Assembly (NCBI GenBank): GCA_009838625.1 | Contig: VXRG01000004.1 | Coordinates: 1 to 64,000, forward strand | Reading direction: 5' to 3' | From: Caldilineaceae bacterium SB0664_bin_27 | GTDB lineage: Bacteria > Chloroflexota > Anaerolineae > Caldilineales > Caldilineaceae | DNA length: 64,000 nt | Part shown: in pieces, positions 39,191 through 41,797 of the stretch | Layout of the letters: every line of letters begins with the position of its first letter | How positions within the stretch are numbered: position 1 is the first letter of the stretch | Translations under genes and position numbers: made by a program | The notes under the pieces: model-generated | Told to the model about the DNA's origin: nothing | Databases searched by the model: none | Seen by the model: only the letters and a program-made list of their open reading frames with translations

Positions 39191-39268
39191 TCTTGAATGC
39201 GAAGCACTTGAAAGAGGGACGATCCGGACGAAGAGCCAAAGCACACGGAAGATAATCGAGGTGTAAAG

Positions 39269-40897
39269 TTGGAACGCATCAAAAACTACAGGGCCGCAGT
39301 CGCCGGCCCGGAAGAGACCCATGAAAGTCTGAGCAGCGGCATCAACAGCATCGCCGATCTGCTGGCGCCGACCCTCGGCCCGATTGGCGGGCATGTGGTG
39401 CATGAGCGGGACGGCACGCGCGGGCCGGAGCTGCTGGACGACGCGGCGACTGCAGTACGCCGTATTCTCAGCCTGGGTGACCCGAAAGTGGATGTCGGCG
39501 CGATGCTCATGCGTCACATCGTTTGGCGGATCGCCGGGCAGGTGGGGGACGGCGGAACGGCCACGGCCCTCCTGACGCGGGAAATCTACCACCAGGCCTT
39601 GAAGATGTTAACGGCCGGTATTGGATACAGAGAACTGGAAATCGGTCTGCAAGCGGCCACGGCGGCCATTTGCCAGGAACTGACCGAAATGGCCGCACCG
39701 GTCGAAACCGAAGACGACCTCGCTGTGGTGGCCCTGACCGTTGTCAAGGACCGGGACCTGGCTGCGACGATCGGCGAACTGAGCTACCTGCTGGGTCCGG
39801 ACGCGCGCGTTTCGGTGGAGAAGTTTGTAGCGCCTTTTCTGGCGCGTGAATATCATGCAGGCGCCAATTACAAAGCCGAGATCGCCAGTTTCCACCTCTA
39901 CACGGACCCGATTCGCAAATGGGCCATCTACGGTGATTCCACGATTGCCCTGGTCGATGACACGCTTTCGGAGGCGGCTGAAACGGTTGCGCTGATCGAG
40001 GCGGCGATGAAGATGGGGAAGAAGTCTCTTGTCATTATTGCCTCCCATATCAAGGAGGAGGCGCTGCATGTGATGGTGCGCAACCAGACCGAGGAGAAGA
40101 AGAAGATTTCGATTCTCGGCATTCAGTTGAAGGAAATCGGCGACCCGAGACGGATGGCCTTCCAGGACCTGACCACGCTGACGGGAGCCAATATCCTTGG
40201 CCGCAACTACTATGCCTACGCAGCCAATGCCAAAGAAGCCGATCTGGGCGAAGCGATGCGTGTACAGGTTGACCGCAAAATGATGCAGCTTCAGCCGTAC
40301 CAGAGCCGCATTGCCGAAATGCAGGAGACGGTCGATCAGCTTCGGACCCGGCTTGAGGGCCTGCGGGTTGATGATGAAGAACGCGACGAAATTATCAACC
40401 GCATCGCTGCGCTCACGGGCGGCATGGGCGTCCTGAAGGTGGGCACCAACCTCAAGCATGAGCGCGACATTGTATCGGCCCTGTCGGAGCGGGCGCTCAC
40501 CGCAGTCTCGCAGGCTCACAGGACCGGGGTTGTACCGGGAGGCGGGGCAGCGTTCGTCCACGCGCGCAGTGCGCTGGACAAGCTCGAGATGGATGGAGAA
40601 GAGAACGTTGGCGTCAAGGTGCTGTATGACTCTCTGAGCGCGCCTTTCCTGCAGATCGTCCAGAACTCGGGCATTGAATCCCCTTCGGTGGCGGCCATCC
40701 GGCTGGAAGAGGCCGGGCCGGCTCACGCGTATGATGTTGTCAAGAAGCAGCTTGTCAATGCTAAGGAAACGGGCCTGGTGGATGTAACGGGAGTGCAGTC
40801 CGCGGTGCTGGAAACGGCCGTCAGCGGAGCGTTGATGGCACTGGGCACCAACACGATAGTATTCCACCGCGAACCAACAGAAAGCATGGAACCGTAA
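39269..40897 (+). CDS. Divergent GroEL/Cpn60 paralog lacking the catalytic Asp398
   Basis: A 542-residue chaperonin-family protein, starting at TTG with GAGGTG 5 nt upstream. Equatorial elements are clear (LAPTLGPIGGHVV; GQVGDGGTATALL; GVVPGGGAA; NVGVKVLYDSLSAPFLQI), and the apical domain is recognisable (GKKSLVIIASHIKEEAL; RMAFQDLTTLTGANIL). An ungapped alignment from KVG to GGG with E. coli GroEL, recalled from memory, puts Arg at the Asp398 position needed for ATP hydrolysis. The Asp52 and Asp87 positions are kept, but GDGTTT became GDGGTA. The Gly/Met-rich tail is absent. It is coupled to a propeller gene. A slow or non-cycling ring, or a partner for true GroEL, is inference. Confidence 0.85.
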   Translation: MERIKNYRAAVAGPEETHESLSSGINSIADLLAPTLGPIGGHVVHERDGTRGPELLDDAATAVRRILSLGDPKVDVGAMLMRHIVWRIAGQVGDGGTATALLTREIYHQALKMLTAGIGYRELEIGLQAATAAICQELTEMAAPVETEDDLAVVALTVVKDRDLAATIGELSYLLGPDARVSVEKFVAPFLAREYHAGANYKAEIASFHLYTDPIRKWAIYGDSTIALVDDTLSEAAETVALIEAAMKMGKKSLVIIASHIKEEALHVMVRNQTEEKKKISILGIQLKEIGDPRRMAFQDLTTLTGANILGRNYYAYAANAKEADLGEAMRVQVDRKMMQLQPYQSRIAEMQETVDQLRTRLEGLRVDDEERDEIINRIAALTGGMGVLKVGTNLKHERDIVSALSERALTAVSQAHRTGVVPGGGAAFVHARSALDKLEMDGEENVGVKVLYDSLSAPFLQIVQNSGIESPSVAAIRLEEAGPAHAYDVVKKQLVNAKETGLVDVTGVQSAVLETAVSGALMALGTNTIVFHREPTESMEP

Positions 40898-40900
40898 ACG

Positions 40901-41797
40901 ATGTCGATCATTCTCTCCCTATCAGAATATGAAGGAAGTATTTGGGCAGCCGGCCCGTATGGCCTGTTTGCCGTTGGCGAGGAGGAGCTGACGCCCACTC
41001 CCCAGCCGCAGGAAAGGCTGACCGCGGCCTGCAGCCTGGGGGATCGCATTTTCACCGGCGGGGCGCCATTTGGCGTGGCCTATCTTCTGGACACTGCGGA
41101 ACAATGGCAGGCGGCCTGGCAAGAGGGCGCGGAATCGGCCGTGCTCACTTTTGCCTCATCGCCGGACTACGACGACTCGGGCGTTATCCTGGCCGGCAGC
41201 GAGGGTGACGGCGTGCTCCGCACTCGCGATCGGGGCCTCCGCTGGATGCCTAGCAACTTTGGTTTGCGAAACCTGACCGTTCTGACGCTTGCGTGGGCGC
41301 CGCCGATGGAGGAGGACGCATGGCCCCGTTGGCAGGTGGTTTTCGCTGGAACGGAGGAGGGCATCTACCGTTCGCCCAATGCCGGGCTGGGGTGGAAGCG
41401 CAGCAGCTCCGCTGACGCAGCCTACCAGACTGTTGCGGTTGCGCCTGACGTGCATTGCAGCGGACTGGTGCTGGCGGGAACAGAGGAAGGCGGACTTTGG
41501 CGGTCGACGGACGGGGGCCGCACTTTTGCCGCCGTGGACGGCGCGCCGGAACAGGTGAACTCGCTCGTCGCCCTGGCAAACGGGGACGGCAGTTCGACCA
41601 AGTGGCTGCTAAGCGATGACACGCAGTTGTGGAGCTCGCAGGACGGCGCGGCCTGGACTCCCGTTTCGGACAGCACGCCTGCCCTCTGCATGCTGGAAGT
41701 GGACGGCAGCGTCTACGTTGGCGGGGAAAACGGGGTCACCGTGGTAGACAGCGCCAGCCTGCAGGTTGAGAGGCAGTTGCAGATTCCGGCCATGTAG
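40901..41797 (+). CDS. BNR/YCF48-like beta-propeller protein coupled to chaperonin paralog
   Basis: A 298-residue protein without signal peptide, so probably cytosolic. It has at least three Asp-box repeats: GVLRTRDRGLRWMPSN, GIYRSPNAGLGWKRSS and GLWRSTDGGRTF, each after an 'AGTEEG' strand, plus weaker repeats at both ends. Together they suggest a six- or seven-bladed propeller. It begins 3 bp after the chaperonin paralog stop, so the two are likely translated together and may interact. I know of no defined function for this pair. Confidence 0.8.
   Translation: MSIILSLSEYEGSIWAAGPYGLFAVGEEELTPTPQPQERLTAACSLGDRIFTGGAPFGVAYLLDTAEQWQAAWQEGAESAVLTFASSPDYDDSGVILAGSEGDGVLRTRDRGLRWMPSNFGLRNLTVLTLAWAPPMEEDAWPRWQVVFAGTEEGIYRSPNAGLGWKRSSSADAAYQTVAVAPDVHCSGLVLAGTEEGGLWRSTDGGRTFAAVDGAPEQVNSLVALANGDGSSTKWLLSDDTQLWSSQDGAAWTPVSDSTPALCMLEVDGSVYVGGENGVTVVDSASLQVERQLQIPAM

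Follow-up and report, generated by a model that had tools for sequence, protein, structure and literature searches.

We found that the window, that is, the whole stretch of 64,000 nucleotides analysed here from Caldilineaceae bacterium SB0664_bin_27 (contig VXRG01000004.1), encodes a divergent GroEL-like chaperonin directly followed by a beta-propeller protein, and that this pair belongs to a larger family in Chloroflexota that is apparently undescribed. We propose that the two proteins form one module, in which a nucleotide-binding chaperonin with slow or no ATP hydrolysis would fold or hold a single dedicated partner, the cytosolic seven-bladed propeller encoded beside it; we put the probability of this reading at just under one half (about 0.47). 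The features of the pair are listed in Table 1.

Table 1. Positions in the window of the chaperonin-propeller gene pair and of its key residues
Feature	Coordinates	Strand	Basis or remark
Divergent group I-type chaperonin (Cpn60 paralog), 542 aa	39269..40897	+	TTG start; GAGGTG at 39258-39263 before the start
Propeller gene, BNR/Vps10-type, 298 aa	40901..41797	+	Starts 3 bp past the chaperonin stop; adjoins the chaperonin in orthologs
Asp58 (GroEL Asp52), kept	39440..39442	+	Alignment
Asp94 (GroEL Asp87, Asp of the GDG phosphate loop), kept; T89 is Gly	39548..39550	+	Alignment
Arg408 (GroEL Asp398, catalytic position on helix M), lost	40490..40492	+	Gap-free alignment; predicted helix 396-419
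C-terminal tetrapeptide SMEP, example of the family tail phi-x-Pro replacing the GGM repeat	40883..40894	+	

By profile and by chaperonin fold, the first protein is a member of the Cpn60/TCP-1 superfamily. It matched Pfam Cpn60_TCP1 (PF00118, E=2.6e-27, 96.1 bits against a cut-off of 34.3), and its top NCBIfam matches were GroEL models, of which TIGR02348 aligned end to end with 234.9 bits, below the cut-off of 582, so that the protein lies outside the GroEL equivalog by score. Group II chaperonin models in NCBIfam matched it weakly, and no large group II apical lid insertion was seen in the end-to-end GroEL alignment or in the secondary structure of the model. The AF2 model, a monomer built from an alignment of 39 sequences, reached a pLDDT of 87.1 and a pTM of 0.80, and its best Foldseek matches were GroEL/Hsp60. 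It superposed on GroES-bound or closed GroEL/Hsp60 subunits with TM scores of ~0.84-0.86, compared to ~0.62 for apo subunits, a preference for the closed state that is only suggestive, as AF2 itself may favour this state. An earlier note, written from the letters of the window alone, had proposed the coordinates, the 3-bp gap and the end-to-end GroEL fold, all of which were borne out by the open reading frames, profiles, AF2 and Foldseek.

The earlier note had also read Arg at the Asp398 position and GDGGTA in place of the GroEL loop GDGTTT, with Asp52 and Asp87 kept and the Gly/Met tail lost. Alignment with E. coli GroEL, using a reference sequence confirmed to be identical to PDB 1aon, agreed on each of these points: D58, D94 and R408 of the window chaperonin correspond to D52, D87 and D398, the loop is changed as described, and the C-terminus reads ...HREPTESMEP with no GGM tail. 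A misalignment at 398 was ruled out, since the helix M region is gap-free against PDB sequences and three alignments gave the same result. The loss of the catalytic aspartate is fixed in the clade. Arg398 is invariant both in the 29/29 other Caldilineaceae orthologs aligned and in 19/19 representative rows of the window clade, among which an acid at 398 was looked for and not found, while the Asp52 and Asp87 equivalents are kept in all 19. The same rows have lost the R197-E386 contact (R197 is Ala in 19/19 and E386 is Lys in 16/19), carry a residue other than Asp at the D83 position in 19/19 and have Gly in place of T89 in 19/19. In GroEL, the R197-E386 contact is broken upon ATP binding and is key to allostery (PMC3326522), and the engineered D398A variant binds ATP normally and retains encapsulation and folding with ~2-3% of ATPase activity, working through nucleotide binding (PMC3326522, PMC3813556). 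Based on the behaviour of D398A GroEL together with these residue changes, we infer that the window chaperonin would bind nucleotide and cycle slowly or not at all. The analogy rests on loss of the same catalytic position, whereas D398A is a laboratory mutant with Ala rather than Arg and with its remaining allosteric contacts intact.

It is conceivable that ATP is instead hydrolysed by another route, for example through Asp52 alone or with Arg398 as an arginine finger, in which case the protein would fold its clients in the ordinary way despite a divergent active site. Retention of D52, D87 and the GDG loop would fit such a route, as would the Glu or Asp found at 398 in other family members, but the ~2-3% activity left in GroEL D398A argues against it, and helix M of the window clade holds no conserved replacement acid. 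The Glu at position 397 is also present in canonical GroEL and is Lys or Thr in 3/19 window-clade members, while the acids gained clade-wide (positions 48, 68 and 360) lie elsewhere in the sequence, off helix M. We therefore consider hydrolysis by another route very unlikely.

Changes extend to the GroES and substrate sites, where the window clade has Ile for Y199 (18/19), Lys for I270 (18/19) and, in most members, a polar or charged residue for V264, while L234, L237, L259 and V263 of the apical groove are mostly still hydrophobic. No groES was found adjacent to the window chaperonin, which is flanked by a PALP enzyme gene and the propeller gene. The same assembly encodes two further chaperonins. 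One, on contig C168, is a canonical GroEL with D398, GDGTTT and the Gly/Met tail, and the GroES gene beside it is cut by the contig end; a second, partial GroES match lies on another contig. The other, paralog B (L007 5248-6900, contig C89), has His at D398 and GDGSVT, sits in an ABC-importer operon with no propeller neighbour and has similar copies in most genomes of the genus. GroES is usually present once per genome, adjoining canonical groEL where visible (G011 is among the genomes with several chaperonins), and it is single in other genomes of the same genus even though several of these carry three to six chaperonin matches. No dedicated GroES gene was found alongside the non-canonical paralogs. 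Taken together, the window chaperonin shares with GroEL (TIGR02348) the full-length fold, the domain order, the Asp52/Asp87 pair of the ATP pocket and an apical groove that is hydrophobic at most positions, but is only ~27-28% identical to it and differs in its ATP-site and allosteric residues (D398 to Arg, T89 to Gly, R197-E386 lost), in its tail, in having a propeller partner and no GroES of its own, and in scoring far under the equivalog cut-off.

Divergent paralogs beside a canonical GroEL, with changes at the ATP and GroES sites, are known from chlamydial GroEL2 and GroEL3 (PMC1892554), and the window chaperonin shares with them this coexistence with a canonical copy. The NCBIfam models for GroEL2 and GroEL3 match the window protein weakly, at 65-98 bits where the cut-off is 600. 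We know of no propeller partner for either chlamydial protein.

In place of the GGM tail, the non-canonical Chloroflexota chaperonins usually end in phi-x-Pro. A terminal Pro is present in 17/19 rows of the window clade, 8/10 of the E-clade, 12/12 of the D-basal group and 23/33 other rows, which amounts to 60/74 non-canonical rows, compared to 0/11 canonical GroELs and 0/79 viral chaperonins. Endings of this type include SMEP, SLNP, DFRP and AYNP (the chaperonins of L054-L091 and L144-L162 and of the window). From its sequence, the tail is a possible candidate for docking, although it tracks the pairing inexactly, as it is missing in the paired L089, L092, L096 and L100 and present in the unpaired L144-L149.

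The association with the propeller is strongly conserved. A window-type ortholog occurs in 17/17 genomes of the same genus and in many of the same family (Caldilineaceae MAGs, Chloroflexota), and a propeller follows on the same strand in every window-type ortholog whose downstream end could be read (32, the window's own included). An assembly or annotation artefact was ruled out by low dN/dS and by finding the linkage in two single-contig chromosome-level assemblies, OX638330.1 (L018) and OY282376.1 (L020). Both genes are under purifying selection, as among same-genus orthologs the chaperonin has a median dN/dS of 0.075 and the propeller one of 0.095, and thus neither is a pseudogene.

The pairing also reaches well beyond the window-type orthologs. 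When 61 relatives were searched with the propeller, the best matches outside the window type nearly all adjoined other divergent chaperonins, and most non-canonical chaperonins in these relatives have a same-strand downstream propeller. Beyond the window pair, we counted 45 pairs in which a full-length chaperonin is followed on the same strand by a propeller, including three loci from a genome scan, and the total in Chloroflexota is ~50, with up to four pairs per genome, one or two propellers per pair, and further pairs in other classes of the phylum. The genome-wide scan used the window protein as query and retrieved close relatives only, and the profile searches stayed within Chloroflexota. 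Across the 44 pairs with a propeller of >250 aa, the intergenic gap ranges from -59 to +174 bp, with nine overlaps of exactly 4 bp, based on start codons as given by the ORF caller. In one paired locus (L093 8209-9903) the chaperonin is split into two open frames and the propeller frame is intact. Two D398 chaperonins (L088, L091) have a related propeller ~8 kb away on the opposite strand, possibly a split pair. Propellers of ~661 aa in other Chloroflexota classes (L120, L122, L124, L127, L128, L133-L135, L139, L143) gave a very strong profile match with no chaperonin in the fetched flank; such propellers, mostly with no chaperonin in reach, were left out of the pair count.

Chaperonin and propeller have diverged together. 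Over 43 pairs, chaperonin similarity correlated with propeller similarity (Spearman 0.70, Mantel p ~0.001, 1000 permutations), a value to which species history contributes. This contribution is mostly eliminated when pairs are compared between the same genomes: of 147 comparisons among the 11 genomes with >=2 pairs, 118 placed the best chaperonin match and the best propeller match in one and the same pair. The linkage noted at first in a single window is therefore conserved, co-diverging and far wider. None of the canonical Chloroflexota GroELs examined has a propeller neighbour. As further controls, 79 full-length chaperonins from viral contigs have Asp at 52, 87 and 398 in 79/79 cases, no propeller in their loci and no terminal Pro, and a search for viral relatives brought up only ordinary chaperonins among the 80 best loci. 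At E 1e-62, a strict limit, PLSDB gave no match that would indicate plasmid spread.

A quick tree grouped the 74 rows of non-canonical chaperonins in a single clade, fully supported by SH-aLRT. Position 398 varies among the propeller-linked rows (Arg in 27, Glu in 17, Gln in 4, Asp in 4, and His, Ala and Tyr in 1 each), and because Glu and Asp occur in paired rows, pairing and loss of Asp398 are separable, with pairing the broader property. Judging by members with Asp near the base of the clade, some of them already paired (L148, L151, L154), pairing seems to have arisen no later than the Asp loss, in a part of the tree that is poorly resolved. Another alteration of the ATP site occurs in other Chloroflexota (L153, L158, L159, L168), with GNGAAT, Asn for D87 and Glu at 398. 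The proposal in the earlier note of a slow or non-cycling chamber with a dedicated partner thus stands in part: the Asp loss and the conserved pairing speak for it in the window clade, but pairing with an acid at 398 shows that impaired hydrolysis is not needed for pairing, and we count this against our module as well.

The AF2 model of the window propeller (pLDDT 93.5, pTM 0.91) has a strand order that fits seven blades of four strands, and we take the protein as a predicted seven-bladed beta-propeller. No signal peptide was seen in it or in the partner propellers, which indicates a cytosolic location. Foldseek returned sensor-domain propellers, GH74 enzymes, RACK1, YCF48 and many others at equal similarity, so the predicted fold points to no particular function. 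The label of a YCF48/BNR-type propeller accordingly held for the propeller fold but not for YCF48 in particular: the window protein has no Pfam or NCBIfam match over cut-off, YCF48 (PF14870) included, even though several relatives of 630 aa and 316-335 aa pass the PF14870 cut-off and the 630-aa partners match PSII_BNR and Sortilin-Vps10. YCF48/BNR/Vps10 propellers and GH74 xyloglucanases share the seven-bladed Asp-box architecture with the window protein, which differs from them in being apparently cytosolic and in having a chaperonin rather than photosystem II or a glycan as its likely partner. Across the family, partners fall into two size classes, of 281-356 aa with one propeller and of 609-683 aa with ~14 repeats of ~45 aa; a loose count of repeat motifs in the larger ones gave ~10-16, where a 630-aa protein built of 45-aa repeats would have ~14. 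These two-propeller partners have masses of 64-73 kDa, at or above the cargo limit usually given for the GroEL chamber, which counts against full encapsulation in such pairs.

The poor fit of these large partners is the main argument for a different reading, in which the propeller, rather than being the client, would serve as a dedicated adaptor or cap. It would dock on the ring, possibly axially with its seven blades set against the seven subunits, and would take over from GroES in recruiting or retaining other substrates. The lack of a dedicated GroES gene, the altered Y199, V264 and I270 sites and the seven blades of the model would all agree with this, but a 14-repeat partner cannot pair blade for blade with seven subunits, and no GroES-like mobile-loop motif was recognised in the propeller. 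The GL motif that follows the Asp box was set aside as such a loop, as it looks generic to BNR/Vps10 repeats. An adaptor is thus a possible reading, if a somewhat unlikely one. We regard as unlikely the bolder version, a widespread and undescribed bacterial chaperonin-propeller class in which nucleotide binding alone powers the chaperonin and a seven-bladed propeller matching the ring replaces GroES as cap or resident subunit.

The genomic surroundings revealed no third conserved gene in the module, as neighbours vary among subclades. An ABC-importer permease gene lies directly upstream of 9/59 chaperonins with a readable upstream neighbour (gap -38 to 16 bp), compared to 6/515 other genes of those loci, and the window genome's own paralog B follows such a permease with a 3-bp gap (L007 4357-6900). 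The permease-linked chaperonin loci are L077, L089, L092, L094, L096, L100, L105, L112 and L113, with gaps of 3-16 bp and one of -38, and some of them also encode a dehydrogenase, a TIM-barrel isomerase and an enzyme resembling fucose isomerase. This enrichment, the sugar-metabolism genes and the resemblance of the propeller folds to sensor domains and GH74 enzymes raise the possibility that the chaperonin no longer folds proteins and now provides a scaffold or sensor whose ligand-binding partner is the propeller, with a tie to sugar uptake in some subclades. We find this quite unlikely, since the apical groove remains mostly hydrophobic and the window pair lies outside any sugar operon, flanked by genes for a PALP enzyme resembling threonine synthase and for an M19 dipeptidase.

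We favour the module of a slow or non-hydrolysing chaperonin dedicated to its propeller based on the invariant Arg at 398, the kept D52 and D87, the lost R197-E386 contact, the linkage, the co-divergence, the usually single GroES and the suggestive closed-state match of the model. From these we infer a physical interaction, ring formation, impaired hydrolysis and the direction of the relationship. A propeller may be hard to close, since closure has to bring the N-terminal blade up against the C-terminal one, and the apical groove of the ring would capture it. ATP binding alone would then push the ring toward the closed state, and a chamber with neither Asp398 nor R197-E386, which in GroEL keeps the open state in place, would not cycle as GroEL does and would fold or hold the propeller in a long-lived complex. 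The phi-x-Pro tails, expected to project into the chamber floor, would perhaps assist. CCT/TRiC folds seven-bladed WD40 propellers (Gbeta, mLST8, Raptor), and in the case of mLST8 the subunit termini inside the chamber keep the propeller between the rings (PMC6599039). Because chaperonin termini contact the propeller there, CCT is the closest analogy for such a specialization, although it is a group II, hetero-oligomeric and hydrolysing chaperonin with many clients and its propellers are not co-encoded.

Textbooks present GroEL as a folding machine that cycles on ATP and serves many clients, and our findings suggest that such a machine has been rebuilt for a single dedicated partner. Although the family is widespread in Chloroflexota, neither the pair nor the chaperonin clade is described in the published open-access papers searched. 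If our reading is true, the family would be a bacterial counterpart of the eukaryotic relationship between CCT and propellers, and it would offer a natural test both of why chaperonins hydrolyse ATP and of the way in which a generalist comes to serve a single partner.
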